Source: Catenulispora sp. MAP5-51
GTDB lineage: Bacteria > Actinomycetota > Actinomycetes > Streptomycetales > Catenulisporaceae
Assembly (NCBI RefSeq): GCF_041261205.1
Contig: NZ_JBGCCH010000002.1
Span: 248,001 to 312,000, forward strand
Length of the DNA: 64,000 nucleotides
Direction of reading: 5' to 3'
Position 1 is the stretch's first letter; each line of letters starts with the position of its first letter. This document shows, piece after piece, positions 18,816-29,588 of this stretch. A program made the translations under genes and the position numbers. The notes beneath the pieces are model-generated. The model worked only from the letters and a program-made list of their open reading frames with translations, searched no databases and was not told where the DNA came from.

Positions 18816-19940
18816 TCAGCGCTTCGTGCCCGGCGCCATCGCAGGGGCCTGGTTGCCGGTCGGGGTGGGGGCGCTCGGAGCCGGCGGATTGCTGCCCGGA
18901 TTACTCCCCGGGTTCTGACCCGGGTTCTGGCTCGCCGTGCGCTTCGCCTGCGGCGTGGCCGCATCCACAGCCGCGCCGACGACCAGCGGCTGCGGGCGCG
19001 TGGCGCCGAGGTAGTCCGCGGCGCCGATCGGGTCGAAGCGGATCACCGCGCCGGTGTGCGGGGCGTCGATCATCACGCCGCCGCCGACGTAGATGCCGAC
19101 GTGGTGGATGCTGCCCGGGTTGGACAGGTCGGTGGCGTAGAAGACCAGGTCGCCGGGCTGGAGCTGGTCGACGGGGACGTGCGGGCCGGTGTACCACTGC
19201 TCGGAGGCGGTGCGGGGCATGGTGATGCCGACCGAGGTGTAGGCGGCCTGGACCAGGCCGGAGCAGTCGAAGCGGCCGTCGGTGCCGTCGCCGCCCCACT
19301 CGTAGGGGGTGCCGAGGCGGTTGTAGGCGTAGGCGATCGCGCGCACGGCCATGTCGGACGGCGCCAGGGTCGGGTCGGGGGCGCGGAAGGCCTGCTCGAG
19401 CGCCTCGATGTTCTTCACGTAGTTCTGGGTCTCCGCGTACGGCGGGATGCCCTGGTACTGCTCGACCGCGCCGGGCCCGGCGTTGTAGCCGGCCAGCATG
19501 TTCGCCACGGCGTCACCGCCTATCCCCGAGAGCTGGTGGGAGATGGCGCAGTCGTAGCGTGCGGCGGCCGGGATCGCGTCGGCCGGATTGCGCGGATCCT
19601 GTTTGCCGTCGCCGTCTTGCGGTGAAGACCAGTTGGGCCAGGTTCCGGGCATGAACTGGGCGATCCCGATGGCACCGGCCGGGGAGACGATGGTCGGGTC
19701 GAAGCCCGACTCCTGATACAGCTGGGCGGCCAGCAGCGAGGGGGTCAGCGTCGGGCACATGTGCCCGTACTGGTTCATGAGTGCGGCATCGGCGGCCGGC
19801 ACGGTACCGTCGGCGATCCGGCCAACGGTGCTCAGACTGGAGCTGCCGGAGGCCACGCTCATGGTCCCGACGACGATCGCGCCTACCAGAAGGAACGGGG
19901 TGGCCACCAGCGACGCGCCGACGACGACAGATGTCTTCAT
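18816..19940 (-). CDS. bifunctional SLT transglycosylase and NlpC/P60 peptidase (T4SS-type wall hydrolase)
   Basis: A 374-aa exported enzyme. An N-terminal TM/signal segment (residues 3-30) is followed by a lytic transglycosylase domain (about 50-185) with catalytic Glu in LYQESGFDP and the GIAQFMPGTW and LAGYNAGPGAV motifs. A NlpC/P60 domain follows (about 195-320) with Cys in RFDCSGLVQ and His in IHHVGIYVG. The Pro/Asn-rich tail is disordered. Such two-domain hydrolases (VirB1-like, also in Tn916-type elements) open peptidoglycan for secretion machines. It is divergent from the VirB2-like gene and probably serves that locus. Confidence 0.92.
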   Translation of the reverse strand: MKTSVVVGASLVATPFLLVGAIVVGTMSVASGSSSLSTVGRIADGTVPAADAALMNQYGHMCPTLTPSLLAAQLYQESGFDPTIVSPAGAIGIAQFMPGTWPNWSSPQDGDGKQDPRNPADAIPAAARYDCAISHQLSGIGGDAVANMLAGYNAGPGAVEQYQGIPPYAETQNYVKNIEALEQAFRAPDPTLAPSDMAVRAIAYAYNRLGTPYEWGGDGTDGRFDCSGLVQAAYTSVGITMPRTASEQWYTGPHVPVDQLQPGDLVFYATDLSNPGSIHHVGIYVGGGVMIDAPHTGAVIRFDPIGAADYLGATRPQPLVVGAAVDAATPQAKRTASQNPGQNPGSNPGSNPPAPSAPTPTGNQAPAMAPGTKR

Positions 19941-20154
19941 CAGAGCCCTTCCTCCCTTCAGTCGATCATCGGATCAACCGATAACCAAGGTGTGCCGCAG
20001 ACTGATAGAGGAAAACGACACCATAGACAAGGTATCTGCCGTCCGCATCATCCTCGTAGACTGAGTTCCCTACGCTACCGGCAGCGACACCACCACATCG
20101 CGAGTACTACGAACACCATCGTTATAACCACAGGACTGGAGGCAGGCGGTCATC
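19941..20154. other. divergent promoter region of the T4SS-like locus
   Basis: These 214 nt separate the wall hydrolase (leftward) from the VirB2-like gene (rightward). The stretch is visibly less GC-rich than its neighbours and contains no credible gene. It presumably holds two promoters; I cannot pick out a confident -35/-10 pair. Confidence 0.5.
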
Positions 20155-20532
20155 GTGTCTGCACTGCAAATTCTGCATGGCGCGGCGCACACCGTGGCCA
20201 CGTTCCTCGCCGACCCCACCCCGACGCCGGCGCCCCCGGCGGGCAACGACATCAACACGATCATCGGCGGCATCGCCCCGAACTGGGGCCCGTTCGGCAA
20301 GGTGGGCAACGAGGCCCGGGTGATGATCGAGGTCATCATGGCCACCGCGATCATCATCTGCCTGGGCATCGCGGTCTGGGGCGCGGCCAAGCAGCGCATC
20401 GGCGCCACGGCGCTGCGCGACACCTTCTCCGCCGAGCAGGGCAAGGGCCTGATCGTGGCCGGCCTGACCGGTGTGTTCATCATCGGATCCCTCGGCACCC
20501 TGTTCACCATCGTCTACGGCATGGCGATCTGA
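20155..20532 (+). CDS. small two-TM membrane protein, VirB2/pilin-like by position
   Basis: A 125-aa protein with a hydrophobic N-terminal segment, a Pro-rich linker (TPTPAPPAG), and two membrane helices at about residues 57-77 (MIEVIMATAIIICLGIAVWG) and 99-122 (LIVAGLTGVFIIGSLGTLFT). A short basic loop lies between them. Size and two-helix topology match VirB2/TrbC-type subunits, and its place at the head of a type IV secretion-like operon supports that; sequence similarity alone would not. Start GTG 20155, GGAGG upstream at 20138. Confidence 0.7.
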   Translation: MSALQILHGAAHTVATFLADPTPTPAPPAGNDINTIIGGIAPNWGPFGKVGNEARVMIEVIMATAIIICLGIAVWGAAKQRIGATALRDTFSAEQGKGLIVAGLTGVFIIGSLGTLFTIVYGMAI

Positions 20533-20697
20533 CACGGCATGGCGATCCGCCCGGCCCCCGCGGCCGGCCGGAAGAGGTGCCACCAGGCGCCGCCGGTCAA
20601 ACCCGCACGAAGCCATCCGGGTATTTGTTAGGAACTGGTGGCCCGACACGACGACGATGTAACGCGACCGGGGCATCCGGGGTGGGGAGACTTGAAC

Positions 20698-21600
20698 ATG
20701 GTTATCGACGGCGGTAGCGGCGGTCCGGGCCGCACGGGCGACGGCGGCCCACGCCGCGGCCGGCCCGGACGCGCACCGCGCATCGAGCAGCCGCAAACCA
20801 TCATCCGCCTCCCCAAAGACCCCTACGACGGCGAGTTCAAGGCCCCCCGAGCCCGCCGAGGCCGAGGCGTCCTGGCCCTGGCCGCAGTCGTCGTAGTCGT
20901 CGCGGCCGTGATCGCGATCAACAGCAGCAGACACAACACCGGCGCCGCCAGCCAGGGCGCCAGCACCGGCGTCGGCGGCGGGGTGCCCCCGGCGACCGCG
21001 ACGGTGGGGCAGAGCGCTCCGGCGGGGGCGGCTTCGAGTCCTGCGTTCCCCAGCGGATCGATCGGGAGCGTGCTGGTCGGATATCCGAACTCGCAGGCGG
21101 GTGCGGAGTCGGCCGCGGCCAACTACGTTTCCGCTTTCGCCTCCGATGACATGGTCCATCCCGATTCGCGGCACAAGCTGATCCAGGCGATCGCCGACCC
21201 GGCCATAGAGCCTGCGCTGCAGCAATCGCTCGACACCGCATTCAATCGCACCTTGAGCGCGTACGGCCTGGACGCACAGGGCAACCCCCCTAAAGGACAA
21301 ACGTTCGTTTACCGCAACGTGCCGATCGGGGTCAGCGTGCAGTCATACACCAACGCCAAAGCGGTCGTAGCGGTGTGGGACACCACCATCGACGGCATCG
21401 CGGGTCAGGGCTCGACCGAACCCATCACGCAGACGTGGAGCACCTCGACCCTCACGCTCACGTGGGTCAACAACGACTGGCGCCTCAACGACTTCTCCCA
21501 GAGCGACGGACCGACTCCGGTGTCGACCCAGCAGGGCTCGGTGCCCGCCGACATCCAAAAGGCCGTCCAGCAGTTCGCGAGGCTCCGTTATGCTCCTTGA
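20698..21600 (+). CDS. bitopic membrane protein, VirB8/TcpC-like by architecture
   Basis: A 300-aa protein: a basic, Gly/Arg-rich cytoplasmic N-terminus (residues 1-56), one TM (57-74, VLALAAVVVVVAAVIAIN), a Ser/Gly linker, then a ~190-aa extracytoplasmic domain (SQAGAESAAANYVSAFAS, later WSTSTLTLTWVNNDWRLNDF). This topology, and the NTF2-like alternation of the distal part, match VirB8 and the TcpC family of Gram-positive conjugation systems. I favour ATG 20698 with GGGGAGA upstream; GTG 20638 is a possible longer start. It overlaps the next gene by 11 nt. Confidence 0.7.
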   Translation: MVIDGGSGGPGRTGDGGPRRGRPGRAPRIEQPQTIIRLPKDPYDGEFKAPRARRGRGVLALAAVVVVVAAVIAINSSRHNTGAASQGASTGVGGGVPPATATVGQSAPAGAASSPAFPSGSIGSVLVGYPNSQAGAESAAANYVSAFASDDMVHPDSRHKLIQAIADPAIEPALQQSLDTAFNRTLSAYGLDAQGNPPKGQTFVYRNVPIGVSVQSYTNAKAVVAVWDTTIDGIAGQGSTEPITQTWSTSTLTLTWVNNDWRLNDFSQSDGPTPVSTQQGSVPADIQKAVQQFARLRYAP

Positions 21601-22942
21601 TCCTCAGGTGCTGCACGCCGCCCCCGCCGATCCCTGCGAGCTGCTGATCGGGGCCATGAAGACGGCCTGCGAGAACACGCAGCAGATGGTCAACGGCACC
21701 CCGACCGCCCCCGGTACCACCGGAGGCAACAACGTCTCCCCCGCCGATACCCTCACCGACCCTCTCGGCTCCATCGCAAAGGGCTGTGCCGAAGCCGCGC
21801 AGTGGGTCATCAACAACCTCTCCGGCGCGATCACCAAGACCGCCACCGTCAACTTCACGAATATGGGCTTCCTGAAGCAGTACGCGATCGTCTTCGCCGC
21901 CTCGGCGATCCTGACCGTTCTGCTCTGGCTGCTGTCCGTCGTCAAGCGGGCGGTGCGGGGTGACTCCATCGTCACCGCCATAGGTGAGGCCACCGGTTTT
22001 CTGTGGATGGCGGTGCTGGCCTCCGCGTTCACGCCGGTGATCCTGGCTGGGATGGTCAAGATCACCGATAGTGTCTCCGATGCCATCGGCAATGGATCCA
22101 CGGCTGATCGGAACGGGTTCCTCGCCGGCTTCTCCAAGGCTCTGGATCCCAACTCCGGGCTGGGTGGCGGCCCGATCATGCTGATCTTCGTCTCTGTGCT
22201 GTCGATGATCGCCGCCGCGCTGCTCTGGCTGGAGCTCATCATCCGCGCGGCCATGCTCTACGTGGGGGCCGCGTTGGCCACGGCTGTGTACGCCGGGTTC
22301 GTCGACAAGTCGATGTGGGGGCACATTCGGCGGTGGGTGGGGTTGATGATCTCCATCGACCTCATCAAACCCATCATTGTCATCGTCCTTTCGTTGGCCA
22401 CGGCTGTGTCGTCGGGGCCTCAGGACTCGTTCAGCGCCGTGCTGTCCGGGCTGGCGATCATGATCCTGTCGATCTTCGCCTCCGGGCTGGTCTACCGGTT
22501 CGTGCCGGCGTTCGGGGACGAGATGCTGACGTTGCAGAAGGAGCGCGCGGCCAAGATCGGGAAGGCCGCGATCACCAGTGCTGCCTTCACTTCCCCGGCC
22601 GGGACCATGCGCAACGGTATGGCCACTCACGCCAATCGCATCAGCGGCGCCTTCGCCGGTGGCGGTGGGGGCGGCAACATGGGCGGTGCGGTCGCCGGGA
22701 TGTCCGTGGGTGCCCTGGCCAGCGGGGCCGGTGCGGCAGCGGGGATCGCGGCGCACACCGGCAGGGCTCTGACCGTTCGCCCCGGCGCGGACGGCGGCCA
22801 GGGTGGCGGTGGAGGCAACGCCGGTGGTGGTGGCAACGCCGGAGGCGGCAGCGGCGGCTCGGCCACCTCCGCCTCCCGGCTGCAGGCGACCCCCGCCCCC
22901 GTCATCCCCAAGACCCCGCCGCCACCGCGCGGCGGTTCGTGA
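21590..22942 (+). CDS. polytopic membrane protein, VirB6-like (SCO6881-type)
   Basis: A 450-aa protein with a short exported N-terminus, about six TMs (around residues 97-118, 128-158, two in 195-238, 249-273, 280-305) and a long soluble tail rich in Gly (GGGGGNAGGGGNAGGGSGG). The pattern of a polytopic core plus extended tail fits VirB6/TrbL-type channel components of type IV secretion systems, and a comparable protein accompanies SCO6880 homologues in streptomycetes. It overlaps the VirB8-like gene and ends in a triplet 10-bp DNA repeat (22934-22963). Confidence 0.75.
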   Translation: MLLDPQVLHAAPADPCELLIGAMKTACENTQQMVNGTPTAPGTTGGNNVSPADTLTDPLGSIAKGCAEAAQWVINNLSGAITKTATVNFTNMGFLKQYAIVFAASAILTVLLWLLSVVKRAVRGDSIVTAIGEATGFLWMAVLASAFTPVILAGMVKITDSVSDAIGNGSTADRNGFLAGFSKALDPNSGLGGGPIMLIFVSVLSMIAAALLWLELIIRAAMLYVGAALATAVYAGFVDKSMWGHIRRWVGLMISIDLIKPIIVIVLSLATAVSSGPQDSFSAVLSGLAIMILSIFASGLVYRFVPAFGDEMLTLQKERAAKIGKAAITSAAFTSPAGTMRNGMATHANRISGAFAGGGGGGNMGGAVAGMSVGALASGAGAAAGIAAHTGRALTVRPGADGGQGGGGGNAGGGGNAGGGSGGSATSASRLQATPAPVIPKTPPPPRGGS

Positions 22943-22963
22943 CCGTTCGTGACGGTTCGTGAC
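22934..22963. repeat. three tandem 10-bp units across the VirB6-like stop
   Basis: GGTTCGTGAC, CGTTCGTGAC and GGTTCGTGAC follow each other; the first contains the TGA stop of the VirB6-like gene. It may reflect slippage or a binding site. Confidence 0.7.
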
Positions 22964-23137
22964 CAACCCCGGTCCGGGACCGGCGAGGGAGGCGAGGACG
23001 AGATGAGGCACACCGCGAGCGCACGCGTCGGCGGGTTCGCGTCCTGCGATCCCGCCGCCCGCGTTTCCCGGGTAGCGTCGAGGACAGAACCCGGCCGCGC
23101 ACCACGATCACCCGCTCCCCCGCTGGAAGGCACCGCC

Positions 23138-23188
23138 GTGAGCACCACGCCAAGCAGTGACGTCCGCCCCCAGGGGGCCCGGCCATGA
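23138..23188 (+). CDS. 16-codon leader ORF coupled to the SCO6880 gene
   Basis: GTG at 23138, 7 nt after a good GGAAGG site, opens a 16-aa reading frame (MSTTPSSDVRPQGARP) whose TGA overlaps the ATG of the next gene (ATGA at 23185-23188). The downstream gene has only a weak ribosome site of its own, so the mini-ORF may couple its translation. The first codons mimic those of the downstream gene (GTGAGCACCAC versus ATGAGCACCAC). It may instead be chance. Confidence 0.35.
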   Translation: MSTTPSSDVRPQGARP

Positions 23189-24714
23189 GCACCACCCAGC
23201 ACGAGCCGCCGCAGTACCGGCGGGCCTATCTGCTCGGCAAGGCCAAGCCGAGCGCGCTGATCGGGCGGAACCGGGAGACCGGGGAGATCGGCGTCATCAT
23301 CGTGTGCTGCGCGATCTCGCTGCTGTCCGGGTTCTTCGTGCCCACCACGTTCTTGAAGGTGCTGGGCATCCTCGCCGGGCCCGCGCTGGCGCTGATCGTC
23401 GTGTTCATGCCCTACAACGGCCGCACCATCTACAAGTGGTTCGAGATCAACCGCTCCTACAAGCGGCTGCTGCGCTCGCCGCAGGCCACCTGGCGGTCGC
23501 GCGCCATGGAGGCCGGGACGCGGATGGACGGCGGCGAGGTGGAGATCGGCCCTCCTCCGGGTGTCGGACGCCTGCGCTGGCTGCGCGCGCAGTTCGGCCC
23601 GGACGAGATCGCCGTCCTGATGCACCTCGACCGCCGCACCGTCACCGCGACGCTGGAGATCGAGGGCCCCGGCGTCGGCTCGCGGGACTCCGAGGACCAG
23701 GAGACGCTGGTCGACCGGTTCGGCACGCTGCTGCGGCACGTGGCCAACGGCGACGGTTTCGTCACCCGGCTGCAGATGCTCGCCCGCACACTGCCCGCAG
23801 ACCCGGACGCGCACGCCAAGGACGTGGCCCGGCGGGGCGACGAGAACTCCCCGCGCTGGCTCCAGGAGTCCTACGAGCACCTGCTGTCGATGGTCTCGAC
23901 CTCCTCCGAACAGCACCGGGCCTACCTGGTCGCCTGCATGCCCTACACCAAGGACCTGGCCTCCGAGGCCTACGTCATCGGACGCGGCGCCGTGGACGTG
24001 GGGCTGGGCATCATCATGGCGCGCGAGCTGGCCGACATCTGCGCCCGGCTGGCCGACGCCGACATCAAGGTGCGACAGCCTCTGGGCCCGGTCGCGCTGT
24101 CCTCGCTGATCCACTCCATGTACGACCCCGACCACCCGATCGACCACCTGCACGCGATGTCGCGGCGCAACGCCTGGCCGGCCGAGTTGGACGCCACCCA
24201 CCCGCAGTTCCTGCGGGCCAAGACCCGCGAGTCGGTCACCGCCGAGCCGTGGTGCCACGCCACCGCGTGGATCAAGGAGTGGCCGCTGACCCCGGTCGGC
24301 GTGAACTTCCTGGCCCCGCTGCTGGTGCACACCCCGGACGTGATCCGGACCGTCGCGGTGACGATGGACCTGGAGCCCACCGACGTGGCCATCGAGCGGA
24401 TGCTCACCGAGAAGATCAACACCGACGCCGAGGCGTCCCGGCAGGCCAAGCTCGGCCGGGTCGACGACCCCCGCGAGCGGGCCCACGCCGGCCGGGTCGA
24501 CCAGCGCGGCGAGGACCTGGCCTCCGGCGCGGCCGGGGTGAACCTGGTCGGCTACATCACGGTCTCCTCGCGCGGGCCGGACCCGCTGAACCGGGACAAG
24601 CGCACGATCCGGGCCTCGGCGGGCAAGTCCTTCCTCAAGCTGGAGTGGTGCGACCGCGAGCACCACAGGGCGTTCACCAACACCCTGCCGTTCGCGACCG
24701 GGCTGAAGAAGTAA
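23185..24714 (+). CDS. SCO6880-family protein (PrgI/VirB3-like T4SS component)
   Basis: A 509-aa protein matching the actinobacterial SCO6880 family. Residues 1-30 are basic, a two-helix membrane hairpin lies at 37-75, and a ~430-aa cytosolic domain follows (IAVLMHLDRRTVTATLEIEG; RGAVDVGLGIIMARELADIC; WIKEWPLTPVGVNFLAPLL). The hairpin resembles PrgI/VirB3, and the soluble part corresponds to the N-terminal half of VirB4-type proteins, so this and the next gene look like a split VirB3-VirB4. Known function is limited to association with type IV secretion genes. Confidence 0.85.
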   Translation: MSTTQHEPPQYRRAYLLGKAKPSALIGRNRETGEIGVIIVCCAISLLSGFFVPTTFLKVLGILAGPALALIVVFMPYNGRTIYKWFEINRSYKRLLRSPQATWRSRAMEAGTRMDGGEVEIGPPPGVGRLRWLRAQFGPDEIAVLMHLDRRTVTATLEIEGPGVGSRDSEDQETLVDRFGTLLRHVANGDGFVTRLQMLARTLPADPDAHAKDVARRGDENSPRWLQESYEHLLSMVSTSSEQHRAYLVACMPYTKDLASEAYVIGRGAVDVGLGIIMARELADICARLADADIKVRQPLGPVALSSLIHSMYDPDHPIDHLHAMSRRNAWPAELDATHPQFLRAKTRESVTAEPWCHATAWIKEWPLTPVGVNFLAPLLVHTPDVIRTVAVTMDLEPTDVAIERMLTEKINTDAEASRQAKLGRVDDPRERAHAGRVDQRGEDLASGAAGVNLVGYITVSSRGPDPLNRDKRTIRASAGKSFLKLEWCDREHHRAFTNTLPFATGLKK

Positions 24715-24729
24715 GGAGGCTGACACGCC

Positions 24730-26361
24730 ATGGCTGGAAACTCCCTCCTGGACGGCCTGATCGAGGGCTTCGCCTCGCTGGTCTTCGGCAAGGTCGAGAC
24801 CACTCGCCCGCCGGTGCGCACCTCCTCCTCGCAGGCGCAGGCCGTCTATCTGCCGACCGCCGCCCCGGGCCTGGGCGACAGCGGCGTCATCATCGGCCGC
24901 GAGGTGTACTCCGGCAAGGGCTACGTCTACGACCCCTTCCAGCTCTACGGCCAGCAGCTGCCGGCCCCGCACTGGCTGGTGCTCGGCGAGTCCGGCAACG
25001 GCAAGTCGGCGCTGGAGAAGACCTATGTGCTGCGCCAGCTGCGCTTCAAGGACCGCCAGGTGGTGGTCCTGGACGCGCAGGGCGAGGACGGCGTCGGCGA
25101 GTGGCACCTGCTCGCCGAATCGCTCGGCGTCACCCCGGTCCGCCTGGACCCGCACGGCGTGCGCGGCGACAGCATCCGGCTGAACCCGCTGGACCCGGCG
25201 ATCACCTCCACCGGACAGCTGGCGCTGTTGCGGACCATAGTCGAGGTGGCCCAGGGCCGGCCGCTGGACGAGCGCGCCGGCTACGCCCTGAAGGCGGCGC
25301 ACCTGCGGGTCGGCGAGGCGGCGCTGCAGTACGGCCGCCAGCCCATCCTCTCGGACGTGGTCGAGGCCCTGCGCACGCCGCTGACCAGCGCCGCCGAGGA
25401 CATGAACGTGACCATAGAGGACGTGCAGGCCTGGGGCCTGGACGTGGCGCTGGTCCTGGACCGGCTGGTCGACGGCGACCTGGCGGGCATGTTCGACGGG
25501 CCCACCACCTCCGGCATCGACCTGGACTCCCCGCTGATCGTCTTCGACCTGTCGGCCATCGACCGCAACTCGATCGGCATGCCGATCCTGATGGCCATCG
25601 TCGGCGTCTGGCTGGAGCACACCTGGCTGCGCCCGGACCGGGTCAAGCGCATCCTGCTGGTCGAAGAGGCCTGGCACATCATCAACTCGCCCTTCGTGGC
25701 CCAGCTGTTCCAGCGGCTGCTGAAGTTCGGCCGCCGCCTGGGCCTGTCCTTCGTCGCGGTGGTCCACCACCTGTCCGACGTCGTGGACGGCGCCGCGGCC
25801 AAGGAGGCGGCGGCGATCCTGAAGATGGCCTCGACCCGCACGGTGTACATGCAGAAGGCCGACGAGGCCAGAACCACCGGCAAGGTCCTGGGCCTGCCCC
25901 GCTGGGCCGTGGAGATCATCCCCTCCCTGACCCCGGGCATCGCGGTCTGGGACGTCAACGGCGATGTGCAGGTGGTCAAGCACATCATCACCGAGCACGA
26001 ACGCCCCCTGGTCTTCACCGACCGCGCCATGACCGAGAGCTCGGCGGACGCCGCGCTCACGGCGAGCGCCGCAGCGGCCGCGCTGACGGCCGGGACGGCC
26101 GAGGAGACGGCGGCACTGGAGGCGGCCGAAGCGGACCGCCTGGCGGCCCTTCCAGCGCCCGCAACGCCGGTGCGCGCGATCGCGGCGGGGAACCAGCAGC
26201 CCATGGACCGCCAGCGGCGGTGGGCGGTGGAGCCGATCGAGGCGGATGACGACGACGAGCTGACGGCGATCGCCGGGACGCTGTTCGGGAAGAAGGCGGA
26301 GCTGCCGTACCAAGCTGAGGCGCCGTACCAGGCGGAGACGCCCGAGGTCTGGGATCGCTAG
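24730..26361 (+). CDS. VirB4-like secretion ATPase
   Basis: A 543-aa P-loop ATPase: Walker A GESGNGKS (residues 86-93), an Asp after VVVLDAQGED, Walker B ILLVEEAW (308-315) followed by the RLGLSFVAVVHHLSDV sensor strand, as in VirB4/TraC. Without the N-terminal half that VirB4 normally has, it pairs with the preceding SCO6880 protein, 15 nt away. The C-terminal ~120 residues are Ala/Glu-rich and probably disordered, with a PYQAE repeat near the end. It would power assembly or substrate translocation at the inner face of the membrane. Confidence 0.9.
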   Translation: MAGNSLLDGLIEGFASLVFGKVETTRPPVRTSSSQAQAVYLPTAAPGLGDSGVIIGREVYSGKGYVYDPFQLYGQQLPAPHWLVLGESGNGKSALEKTYVLRQLRFKDRQVVVLDAQGEDGVGEWHLLAESLGVTPVRLDPHGVRGDSIRLNPLDPAITSTGQLALLRTIVEVAQGRPLDERAGYALKAAHLRVGEAALQYGRQPILSDVVEALRTPLTSAAEDMNVTIEDVQAWGLDVALVLDRLVDGDLAGMFDGPTTSGIDLDSPLIVFDLSAIDRNSIGMPILMAIVGVWLEHTWLRPDRVKRILLVEEAWHIINSPFVAQLFQRLLKFGRRLGLSFVAVVHHLSDVVDGAAAKEAAAILKMASTRTVYMQKADEARTTGKVLGLPRWAVEIIPSLTPGIAVWDVNGDVQVVKHIITEHERPLVFTDRAMTESSADAALTASAAAAALTAGTAEETAALEAAEADRLAALPAPATPVRAIAAGNQQPMDRQRRWAVEPIEADDDDELTAIAGTLFGKKAELPYQAEAPYQAETPEVWDR

Positions 26362-26364
26362 CCG

Positions 26365-27282
26365 GTGATCGCGCTCCTGTCCGCACCGAGCAATCTGGGC
26401 CTGCGCCCGCCCGAGCCGACCAGCGTCCCGGGCACCGCCAAAGCCCCGGAAGCCTTGCGCGAAGCGGGATTGTTCGCCCGCTTCGCCGAGGCCGGAGCCC
26501 TCGACGCCGGCGTCGTGTTGGCCGGCCGCTACCTGGACGACGCGACGCCGGGACGGCTGCGCAATCAGGACGCGATCATCGAGCACGCCCGGCGGCTGGC
26601 CCGCCGCATCGCCGAGATCCGGTCCGAGGGCAGCTTCCCCCTGGTGATCGGCGGGGATTGCAGCCTGGTGGTCGGAGTGGGGCTCGCCCTGCGCCCGGCC
26701 GGCCGCTTCGCGCTCGTGCACCTCGACGGCCACACGGACTTCCGGAACCCCGGCAACTCCGAGTCCTGCGCGGCGCTGGCGGGCGAGGATCTGGCCGCGG
26801 CCATCGGACGCCACTGGCCGGCGATCGCGGACATCGAAGGGCTCGGACCGTACTTCGCCCCGGCGGACACGGTGCACGCCGGATGCCGCGACGACGACGC
26901 CGAACTGGACGAGGTCCGCGCCGCCATCGGCCTCACGATCCGGGCCTCCGCGATCATCGCCGACGGCGCCGCGGCCACCGCCGACCGGATCCGCGACCGC
27001 GTCGACCGGCCCGGCATCGACGGCTACTGGCTGCACCTGGACGTGGACATCCTCGACGCGGCCGTGATGCCGGCGGTGGACAGCCCCGACACCGGCGGCC
27101 TGCACGCCGGCCAGCTGACCGAGCTGCTGGCCGCCCTCGCGCCGCGCGCGGTCGGCGCGCACGTCACCGTCTACGATCCCGATCTCGACCCGGACGGCCG
27201 GTACGCGCGGGTGCTGGTGGACGTCGTGACCGAGGGCCTGGGGCGCCTGGGGAGCGAGCTGTCCGGACAATCAGGAATCTGA
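26365..27282 (+). CDS. arginase/agmatinase-fold protein with altered metal ligand
   Basis: A 305-aa protein with the ureohydrolase fold: GGDCS (96-100) where arginases have GGDHS, LDGHTD (120-125) where they have DAHxD, and DVDILD (226-231). Three of the usual metal-binding motifs are present but the His of the first is Cys, a variant seen in some actinobacterial arginase-family proteins. Substrate could be arginine, agmatine, formiminoglutamate or another guanidino or ureido compound. GTG 26365 lies 3 nt after the VirB4-like stop, so it is probably cotranscribed with the secretion genes. The 3' end overlaps the convergent GNAT gene by 12 nt. Confidence 0.8.
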   Translation: MIALLSAPSNLGLRPPEPTSVPGTAKAPEALREAGLFARFAEAGALDAGVVLAGRYLDDATPGRLRNQDAIIEHARRLARRIAEIRSEGSFPLVIGGDCSLVVGVGLALRPAGRFALVHLDGHTDFRNPGNSESCAALAGEDLAAAIGRHWPAIADIEGLGPYFAPADTVHAGCRDDDAELDEVRAAIGLTIRASAIIADGAAATADRIRDRVDRPGIDGYWLHLDVDILDAAVMPAVDSPDTGGLHAGQLTELLAALAPRAVGAHVTVYDPDLDPDGRYARVLVDVVTEGLGRLGSELSGQSGI

Positions 27283-28278
27283 TCCGAGCGCCTTCTCGAC
27301 GTCCGCGATCTCGGCCTCGATGTAGACGCTGTCCGCCAGCGTCCGGAATCCGAGCACCCGGTTGATCGAGGCCATGTGGTCCAGGTCGGCAGTCTGGGTC
27401 ATCACCTGCCGGGCCGCGGGACGCTCGGCGACGAGCGTGCGCAACTGCGCCGCCTTTACAGCCAGCCCGAGACCGTGGCCGCGGTGCTCACGCCGTACCG
27501 CGGTGTCGAGCTGCTGCACGACGGTCGGCCGGGCGGCCCCGATCGTGACGATGGTGATGGCGGCGACCTCGCCGGTCACCTCCTCGACGGCCACCACCGC
27601 ACGGGATTCGCGACCGGCCTCGGCGTTGCGGGCCTCCTCCTCCCGCACCCGCGCCGGCGTCCACTGCGGTTCATCCCATCGGAGGTCACCGGAGACCGCG
27701 TCGTCCATCGCCTGCCGGGCGACAACGTAGGACGCGAGCAGGCTTTCGGGAGCGGTGTCGGTCCACGACTCAAGGCGGTATCCGTCGGGGACCGGAACGC
27801 TCCACAGCGTTTGGTCGACCTCGGCGAGGATGAGGATCTGCTGGACGTACCGCAGCGTAGGCCGAAAGCCCAAGCCGGCTCCCCAGAATTCGCCCGAGTC
27901 GTGGGAATCGGCGGATCCGATAACCCGGGTCCGGCCCTCGGCGCGCGCCGCCTCGATCAGTATTCGAAGAAAGTCGGTCGCGATGCCCCGGCGACGCCGA
28001 TCGGGCCGGATGCGGATCTCGATAAGCGCGGTCTGTGTGTTCTCCCTCGCGGGCAGCTGAAGGAAACCGGCGGCTTCCTTCGTTCCCCCGTCGTCGCCGA
28101 ACCACAACTGCGCGAAGTCGCCTTTGGTCGTTCCCGTGCGCAAGGCATATGCCAGCTCCGGCCCCGACCTCGACGGCCGCAGCGGTCGGTCCGCCGCGTC
28201 GAGTTCCGCCAAGAAGGCCGCGGCCTGCTCGAAGTCGCTGTCAGAGGCCTGAGTCTCGTCGAACCGCGTGAACTCCAT
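27271..28278 (-). CDS. tandem-GNAT acetyltransferase
   Basis: A 335-aa protein with two GNAT modules. Module 1 (about residues 1-165) has IEIRIRPDRRRRGIATDFLR, the acetyl-CoA pyrophosphate loop. Module 2 (about 175-335) has DTAVRREHRGHGLGLAVKAA and ends with NRVLGFRTLADSVYIEAEI. Both loops look intact. Double-GNAT proteins include mycothiol synthase (MshD), but the details here do not point to it; substrate unknown. ATG 28278 (MEFTRFDE) is chosen; the longer frame to 28476 covers the small gene just upstream. Confidence 0.82.
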   Translation of the reverse strand: MEFTRFDETQASDSDFEQAAAFLAELDAADRPLRPSRSGPELAYALRTGTTKGDFAQLWFGDDGGTKEAAGFLQLPARENTQTALIEIRIRPDRRRRGIATDFLRILIEAARAEGRTRVIGSADSHDSGEFWGAGLGFRPTLRYVQQILILAEVDQTLWSVPVPDGYRLESWTDTAPESLLASYVVARQAMDDAVSGDLRWDEPQWTPARVREEEARNAEAGRESRAVVAVEEVTGEVAAITIVTIGAARPTVVQQLDTAVRREHRGHGLGLAVKAAQLRTLVAERPAARQVMTQTADLDHMASINRVLGFRTLADSVYIEAEIADVEKALGSDS

Positions 28279-28285
28279 CCATCCC

Positions 28286-28480
28286 TTATAGCGTGAAGTC
28301 CAGTAATCGCGCCGCCTCGTTTTCGCTCCGGCAGGGCCACACGTCCCCGCAGGTGCAGAACACAGGGCCCGGTTCCCCGTCCAGACCCCGCACCTCCACC
28401 CTCTGATGCACCGCGAACAGCACCCCCACCCAGTTGCGGTAATCCGGGGCGACGTGATCGTCAAGACTTGCGACACTCAT
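28286..28480 (-). CDS. small conserved Cys-containing protein
   Basis: A 64-aa protein ([20 protein letters not shown] at the start) ending in a cluster [11 protein letters not shown], three cysteines in a C-x-C-x5-C spacing that could bind metal. ATG 28480 has a good GGAGG 7 nt upstream. It lies 7 nt upstream of the GNAT gene and is probably its operon partner. Similar tiny proteins with a C-x-C/W-P-C tail are common in actinobacteria and have no known function. Confidence 0.6.
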
Positions 28481-28589
28481 GGATGTCCTCCAGTCTCCGC
28501 GCTGTCCGGCGGCACCGTCTTCCAGACACGGTGTCCAACGACGCCGCCCGGCGCGGGTGACGGGTGAATTCTGTGATGGGAGTTGCTGC

Positions 28590-29588
28590 ATGAAGTACCG
28601 CGTCCTCGGGAGTGACGGTCCGCGGGTCTCCGCGCTCGGACTCGGCTGCATGGGCATGTCCGACTTTTACAGCGTCACCCCCGAGTCCGAAGCGGAGTCG
28701 ATCTCGGTGTTGCACCGGGCGATCGACGATCTCGGGGTGACGCTATTGGACACCGCCGACATGTACGGGAAGGGCGAGAACGAGAAGCTGGTCGGGCGGG
28801 CGCTGACCGGCGGCCGGCGGGACGCGGTGGTGCTGGCGACGAAGTTCGGCATCCGGCGCGACCCGGAGACCGACGAGCGTTCGATCCGCAACGATCCCGA
28901 GTACATCCGGGCCGCCGTCGACGCTTCGCTGGCCCGCCTCGGTGTCGACCACATCGACCTCTACTACATGCACCGCCGCAACCCCGATGTCCCGGTCGAG
29001 GAGTCGGTCGGCGCGATGGCGGAGCTGGTGCGGGCGGGCAAGGTGCGCTTTCTGGGTCTGTCCGAGGTGAACGCCGAGACCCTGCGCGCCGCGCACGCGG
29101 TGCATCCGATCACCGCCCTGCAAAGCGAATACTCGTTGTTCACCCGCGACATCGAGGCCGAGGTGCTGCCCGCGGCCCGCGAACTCGGCGTCGGGATCGT
29201 GCCCTACTCCCCGGTCGGGCGCGGGCTGCTGACCGGTGCCATCACCTCGACGGAAGGGCTGGCCGCCGACGACTTCCGGCGTTCCAACCCGCGCTTCGCC
29301 GACGGCAATCTGGAGGCGAACCTGAAGCTGGTCGCGGAGCTGCGCGCGGTCGCCGAGGAGACCGGCCACAGCCCGGTGCAGCTGGCGCTGGCATGGCTGC
29401 TGGCGCAAGGGCCGGACATCGTGCCGATCCCGGGCACCAAGCGGATCAAGTACCTGGACGAGAACTCGGCCGCGGCGGACATCGAGCTGAGCGCCGAGCA
29501 GCTGGCCCGGATCGAGGCCGCGGTGCCTCATGGGGCCGCGTCCGGGGAACGCTACGCGCCTGATTCGGCGCGGCGGACCGAGCGCTAG
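28590..29588 (+). CDS. aldo/keto reductase
   Basis: A 332-aa NADPH-dependent (alpha/beta)8-barrel reductase. The tetrad is visible: Asp in LLDTADMYG, its Tyr, Lys in LATKFGI, and His in [21 protein letters not shown] at the N-terminus and [16 protein letters not shown] near the cofactor site place it in the YghZ/AKR13-type group. Physiological substrate unknown. ATG 28590 follows GGGAG at 8 nt. The TAG stop is part of the CTAG that begins a 196-bp palindromic element. Confidence 0.9.

Follow-up and report, generated by a model that had tools for sequence, protein, structure and literature searches.

We propose that six genes in a 64,000-nucleotide stretch of Catenulispora sp. MAP5-51 DNA (the window; contig C2, positions 248001-312000 of a 10.9-Mb draft genome) form a chromosomal locus that is core to its order, Streptomycetales. 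This locus would have descended from a conjugative type IV secretion system (T4SS), probably no longer conjugates, and would act in development as a VirB4-powered envelope machine built around a pilin or conduit. We put the probability of this reading at roughly 60%. The six proteins, a cell-wall hydrolase and homologues of CmdF, CmdE, CmdD, CmdC and CmdB, are real, and we read all of them as T4SS parts. The locus is already known and, as a Catenulispora member, unremarkable. Judging from the literature, the new points are the full assignment of its parts, the split VirB4, its core status across the order and the graded death of its coupling protein.

A Catenulispora locus matching the cmd/tgdA sporulation cluster

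The cmdABCDEF genes of Streptomyces coelicolor (SCO4126-4131), named in 2009 for their phenotype, encode the VirB4-like ATPase CmdB and five membrane proteins, and SCO6880 and SCO6881 resemble CmdC and CmdD (PMC2782261). On sequence evidence, the window locus is the Catenulispora copy of cmdBCDEF (SCO4127-4131) together with tgdA (SCO4132), an identification that we base on three independent links. Firstly, the published S. coelicolor cmdB mutagenesis primers (PMC2782261) encode ESGNG[R]SALE and VQVV[R]HLIT, where the window ATPase has ESGNGKSALE and VQVVKHIIT. The primers change lysine to arginine, with one primer encoding E at that place, and there is a single mismatch between one of them and the Streptomyces stelliscabiei orthologue. 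Secondly, the published identity between SCO4127 and its counterpart on plasmid SLP2 is 33% (133/393; PMC2782261), and a Streptomyces CmdB orthologue is 33.1% identical to the SLP2 protein over 391 residues. Thirdly, SCO4130, the CmdE orthologue, is a glycosylated membrane protein with one transmembrane segment (TM) (PMC6593405) and SCO4131, the CmdF orthologue, is a two-TM protein (PMC2000904), in agreement with the counts of one and two for CmdE and CmdF in the window.

The cluster neighbour tgdA (SCO4132) encodes a putative lytic transglycosylase (PMC6585502), which the window hydrolase matches in place and kind. The window also has the gene order F-E-D-C-B, with the hydrolase beyond F. A gene in the position of cmdA, after CmdB, is absent from both the window and Catenulispora rubra, and present in 65 of the 80 loci that made up our order-wide comparison. 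The nearest named relative of the window CmdB is that of C. rubra (93% identity).

Two details of the cmdB paper (PMC2782261) are recorded here in passing. The primers named K90A and K404A appear to be swapped, and encode lysine-to-arginine changes (lysine to glutamate in one primer) rather than alanine. The residue number K404 also misfits, the corresponding lysine being number 413 in S. stelliscabiei.

Assignment of T4SS parts

The genes of the locus are listed in Table 1. The first-pass annotation of this DNA had placed six proteins here and read them as a chromosomal T4SS-like machine with VirB1, VirB2, VirB3, VirB4, VirB6 and VirB8 roles. Coordinates, Pfam and NCBIfam matches and TM counts bear out all six proteins, and the assignment of roles finds support as well, given the agreement of the CmdE model with VirB8, the match of CmdB to a solved VirB4-like protein and the correspondence of CmdC plus CmdB to one fused VirB4. 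The same annotation recognised neither the cmd/tgdA identity nor the published mutants, so that its overall interpretation was sound for the machine and incomplete for the system.

Table 1. Genes of the locus and the gene at its right-hand edge, in window positions.
Gene or product	Position	Strand	Length and topology	Assignment
Hydrolase, SLT + NlpC/P60	18816-19940	-	374 aa, one TM	VirB1-like cell-wall hydrolase; putative TgdA/SCO4132 orthologue by position and domain
CmdF	20155-20532	+	125 aa; start codon uncertain	Small pilin-like protein, candidate for the VirB2 role
CmdE	20638-21600	+	320 aa, one TM	Bitopic; extracytoplasmic NTF2/VirB8-like domain at ~150-292
CmdD	21590-22942	+	450 aa, six hydrophobic segments	Polytopic, VirB6/TrbL-like; Gly-rich tail
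CmdC	23185-24714	+	509 aa, two TMs near start	SCO6880 family; putative VirB3-like unit plus VirB4 N-terminal part
CmdB	24730-26361	+	543 aa, no TM, soluble	VirB4 ATPase domain; Walker A GESGNGKS, lysine 92
Arginase-family gene	26365-27282			Right edge of the feature as first annotated

For CmdB, the Pfam families AAA_10 and P-loop_TraG both score above cut-off, and there is a match to the solved VirB4-like protein PDB 4ag5 (E=3e-5). CmdC scores 193 bits against NCBIfam NF042935, the SCO6880 family (cut-off 60). Its C-terminal ~140 residues align to the pre-ATPase part of fused 664-aa VirB4 proteins from the same genome: in two other elements, a single 664-aa frame aligns first to the C-terminal part of CmdC and then to CmdB. 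The match to the CmdC part is weak with a CmdC profile (E=5e-4 and 0.01) and reaches 1e-11 with NF042935; that to CmdB gives E=3e-16 and 6e-11. CmdC and CmdB thus appear to be the two halves of a split VirB4. A low-confidence model of CmdC has two N-terminal TM helices and a further helix, resembling a VirB3 unit, and its top Foldseek rows are TrwK/VirB4 (best E=0.005); because the model is poor, we count these matches as weak support.

The extracytoplasmic domain of CmdE was modelled by AlphaFold2 with pLDDT above 90. The best VIA-align rows for this model are DotI (Z 13.3), an IcmL-like protein (12.9) and VirB8 (12.4); VirB8/DotI/TraM chains range from Z 13.3 to about 11, against 10.7 or less for unrelated NTF2 folds. 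The model therefore identifies CmdE as a predicted VirB8 with an NTF2-like domain. CmdD is assigned as a putative VirB6/TrbL-like polytopic protein: Pfam TrbL_4 is matched by 8 of 31 CmdD orthologues (best E=2e-4), the window CmdD itself not being among them, and there is a weak match to NCBIfam SCO6881. CmdF has two hydrophobic segments (residues 56-74 and 99-117), and a plasmid homologue weakly matches a pilin-like family of integrative conjugative elements (E=0.002, below cut-off). Neither CmdF nor CmdE gave a useful Pfam match, and PDB sequence searches with CmdC, CmdE, CmdD and CmdF profiles returned nothing credible. The hydrolase matches NLPC_P60 (E=4e-25) and SLT (E=1e-16). A VirD4 coupling protein was not found near the window locus; it is an optional part, and some T4SSs lack it.

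The genes had been described as having overlaps or 15-nt gaps through most of the cluster, which is true in part. CmdE and CmdD overlap by 11 nt and CmdC is followed by CmdB after 15 nt, but 105 nt separate CmdF from CmdE and 242 nt separate CmdD from CmdC. The hydrolase gene is divergent from the rest of the cluster and lies 214 nt from that of CmdF.

The coupling protein has decayed relative to plasmid relatives

The five genes recur, in unchanged order, on large plasmids of Streptomyces and Actinacidiphila, where an intact VirD4/TraM-recognition protein is encoded downstream of the ATPase. Profile searches confirmed the full set of five homologues on two of these plasmids, with CmdF homologues at the same place (E=4e-22 and 8e-22), CmdE homologues at 5e-48 and 1e-47, and CmdD homologues at 3e-63 and 2e-49. 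The pair of SLT and NlpC/P60 domains also heads plasmid clusters. Right behind the conjugation genes of one Streptomyces plasmid lies a CATRA/CHAT-domain conflict-system cluster (L108, 19327-25899).

In the 65 chromosomal loci that have one, the gene in the cmdA position is homologous to plasmid VirD4; by its position, this gene would be SCO4126 itself. The S. stelliscabiei protein is 28.5% identical to plasmid VirD4 over 526 residues (E=3e-44). The P-loop GK[ST] is kept in none of the 65 genes, about a dozen loci being cut by contig ends, and in the genes that extend as far as Walker B, its D-E is replaced by D-D or something else. The C-terminal tail is gone, leaving only a sub-threshold TraG-D_C match. 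Only a 150-aa N-terminal anchor of VirD4 remains in the Embleya locus, and nothing of VirD4 is detectable after CmdB in Catenulispora (the window included), Actinocrinis, Actinospica or Kitasatospora-type loci. The comparison shows a coupling protein that appears to have died in place, surviving as an ATPase-dead relic in Streptomyces and its kin and gone in Kitasatospora, Actinospica, Actinocrinis and Catenulispora. Its absence, remarked on in the first-pass annotation, holds for the window but is not primary, as the plasmid relatives have VirD4 and Streptomyces has an ATPase-dead relic.

The locus is conserved across the order

Throughout the 80 loci, the order and strand of the F-E-D-C-B block are kept wherever its members are detected. 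Of 246 genomes of the order, 241 carry CmdF, against none of 384 genomes outside it; the five without a match are two incomplete drafts of the same genus and three assemblies of 630-850 contigs. In a separate sample, each of the eight other genomes of the order has a CmdC of 72-74% identity; outside the order CmdC is sporadic and at most 33% identical. In a tree of CmdC and CmdB, the chromosomal copies group largely by genus and family, and the plasmid copies form one separate, well-supported group. The root of this tree is insecure because the outgroup, a related element on contig C41 of the window genome, is too distant (branch length 10). Between the window and C. rubra, dN/dS is 0.06-0.32 for the cluster genes, and the Catenulispora copies are under purifying selection. 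These comparisons show a core, vertically inherited locus, nearly universal in the order, and such conservation is far from what chance would give. The first-pass annotation had proposed such a comparison with relatives, and it finds the locus order-wide and syntenic.

One locus in the tree comes from a genome named 'Saccharothrix sp. ST-888' (L084). It is of the Kitasatospora type and falls within the Kitasatospora group, so the genome is probably misnamed.

Mobile genes and other T4SS loci in the genome

Genome-wide statements about the window genome rest on family searches. No relaxase, VirD4 or integrase was detected in or near the window, the relaxase search having covered the TrwC family only, with other families not searched. 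In this respect the first-pass annotation, which had reported no relaxase or coupling protein at the locus and suggested scanning the genome for them, was right. Five VirD4-like matches, one TrwC relaxase (contig C66) and 15 tyrosine-recombinase matches occur elsewhere in the genome. A relaxase and an integrase just outside the window would have pointed to an ordinary conjugative element; there is no tyrosine recombinase within 100 kb of the locus on its contig.

Three other T4SS loci of the genome (on C41, on C2 near 588 kb and on C5 near 441 kb) have an integrase within ~10 kb and a VirD4 gene. The C41 locus (L109, 12000-31000) is the genome's second T4SS of the SCO6880 type; it carries VirD4 and lies near an integrase. 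The loci on C2 (L110, 7716-11878) and C5 (L111, 6487-10814) each have a fused VirB4 in a 664-aa frame, an adjoining VirD4 and an integrase near. A third similar VirB4/VirD4 pair lies on C3 near 614 kb.

Downstream of CmdB, arginase-family, GNAT and aldo/keto-reductase genes occupy positions 26365-29588, up to a large AAA regulator. We considered the arginase gene for a seventh member but place it outside the system, because every related locus examined lacks it. The right edge of 27282 given to the feature in the first-pass annotation therefore takes in a gene that does not belong. The next called gene after CmdB in C. rubra is the regulator found further downstream in the window. Since C. rubra lacks the arginase gene and has the GNAT gene only as a trace, the 26365-29588 stretch is lineage-specific.

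Discussion

The function of the cluster is best known from mutants. In S. coelicolor, deletion of cmdB, cmdC, cmdD, cmdE, cmdF or the whole cluster gives light-grey colonies with seemingly fewer spores. The cmdB and cmdA-F mutants show late aerial growth and branched and collapsed hyphae, and cmdA deletion has no apparent effect on sporulation (PMC2782261). Transcription of cmdB goes up with aerial growth, CmdB is located at the membrane, and two of its lysines, one of them that of Walker A, are required for function (PMC2782261). Chromosome segregation suffers along with sporulation and aerial growth when cmdB-F or tgdA is lost, and actinorhodin production is raised to the same level in tgdA and cmdBCDEF mutants (PMC6585502). 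A developmental role is known only from S. coelicolor, S. lividans and S. avermitilis (PMC2782261). A possible type IV-like channel was suggested by Xie et al. in 2009 (PMC2782261); the passages on SCO4126-4131 in other published work give no T4SS roles for the other genes.

Since T4SS pili need VirB4 but not VirD4 (PMC12857230), the retention of VirB2-, VirB4-, VirB6- and VirB8-like parts together with the loss of VirD4 suggests a machine that builds a pilin structure or conduit. In such a mechanism, which we infer from the parts, CmdC would anchor the CmdB motor in the membrane, and the two would act on pilin-like CmdF subunits. CmdD would provide a platform and CmdE a collar on the wall side. 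The hydrolase would open a gap in the walls of aerial hyphae, across which CmdF would be assembled into a short pilus or conduit. We give even odds to the broader proposal that the whole order domesticated a conjugation machine, keeping pilin, VirB4, VirB6/VirB8 and hydrolase for development while VirD4 decayed via an ATPase-dead relic to loss.

Several observations weigh against the pilin or conduit machine. Neither a pilus nor a channel or secreted product has been observed for the cmd system, and the phenotypes were all recorded in Streptomyces rather than Catenulispora. That CmdF is a pilin is a prediction from its size, topology, place and a single sub-threshold match, and no Pfam family matches it. 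The AlphaFold2 model of CmdC is poor (mean pLDDT 48.9). In many Streptomyces loci the hydrolase does not lie beside the cluster; among the 59 loci of the order where its position could be judged, it is within 2 kb and divergent in 29, further away in 12 and absent from the stored flank in 18. Finally, the mis-segregation of chromosomes in mutants could instead point to movement of DNA.

This last point leads to the best placed of the alternatives, in our view an unlikely one: a DNA translocator acting across sporulation septa or between hyphae, driven by CmdB or by a coupling or FtsK-type motor encoded elsewhere. The cmdB and cmdA-F mutants have 8% and 6% anucleate spores, respectively, and uneven chromosomes (PMC2782261). 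CmdB falls in the FtsK/HerA ATPase superfamily, as described for VirB4 (PMC12857230), and the genome contains many FtsK-type matches beside its five VirD4-like ones. However, in each chromosomal locus examined the dedicated coupling protein is either dead or missing, and the other VirD4 genes looked at sit in T4SS loci with their own VirB4, beside an integrase. Moreover, transfer of an SLP2-derived plasmid was unaffected by cmd deletion, although the authors did not show these data (PMC2782261).

Ranked after it, and also improbable, is an exporter of proteins or envelope enzymes that works with no coupling protein, as the Ptl and Brucella systems do, and delivers a wall or surface protein for aerial growth. 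Some T4SSs that lack VirD4 do export proteins (PMC12857230), and the wall hydrolase is tied to the cluster by position and phenotype (PMC6585502). Against this, no cargo gene is conserved in the cluster across the order. The Gram-negative examples also take their substrates from the periplasm, a space that is organised differently here. Protein or wall-associated export, suggested in the first-pass annotation, is a possible function; we favour the pilin or conduit role.

That the locus is an ordinary integrative conjugative element, or a recent remnant of one, is barely credible and was rejected: its parts are homologous to conjugative plasmid genes, but it is present almost throughout the order, sits deep within the chromosome in many finished Streptomyces-group genomes, follows the genera in its tree and is under purifying selection in its Catenulispora copies, with no relaxase (TrwC searched) or intact VirD4 near and the nearest tyrosine recombinase more than 100 kb away.

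Nearly all known functions of Gram-positive T4SSs are in DNA transfer, according to a 2025 nomenclature review, which mentions Streptomyces under TraB and does not contain the word 'sporulation' (PMC12857230). If our reading is correct, the cmd system would be a Gram-positive T4SS that serves the development of its own cell rather than DNA transfer. With a T4SS part assigned to every gene, and the coupling protein seen to die in place beside a conserved pilin and motor, what had been 'membrane proteins for differentiation' now pose a concrete question, namely whether the aerial growth of Streptomyces depends on a pilus or conduit made by a former conjugation machine, and one that is testable in ordinary laboratory strains.

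Comparison with known systems

The closest known system is the cmd/tgdA cluster of S. coelicolor, which shares genes, order and signature peptides with the window locus and is orthologous to it. The Catenulispora locus differs in lacking the gene in the cmdA position, where it has an unrelated arginase gene, and in that its hydrolase stays close. The conjugation-type clusters of large Streptomyces and Actinacidiphila plasmids, for example NZ_CP108821, NZ_CP108308 and NZ_CP023977 (pMDJK44.2), have CmdF-E-D-C-B homologues in the same order, with E-values down to 1e-134 for the two plasmids that were profile-tested. Beyond the intact VirD4 after their ATPase, several of these plasmids have extra small genes, and pMDJK44.2 is typed with a MOBF relaxase. 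Some plasmid clusters of the conjugation type have an M23 peptidase gene in place of the hydrolase.

The T4SS of the linear plasmid SLP2 of S. lividans (NC_004933) likewise places an SLT/C40 hydrolase, a small protein, a polytopic protein and a VirB4-like ATPase in one run, with an ATPase identity of ~33% to the cmd locus. In contrast to the latter, the SLP2 genes are needed for plasmid transfer and have an FtsK-type gene upstream, and of their SCO6880-like region the C-terminal part alone is detected. The C41 element, of the SCO6871-6884 type (455 bits to SCO6880_fam), also has a small protein, an SCO6881-like protein, SCO6880 and an ATPase in one run, but it is only 23-28% identical to the window locus and has VirD4 and an integrase nearby. 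In S. coelicolor, SCO6878 and SCO6881 mutants of that type have no sporulation defect (PMC2782261).

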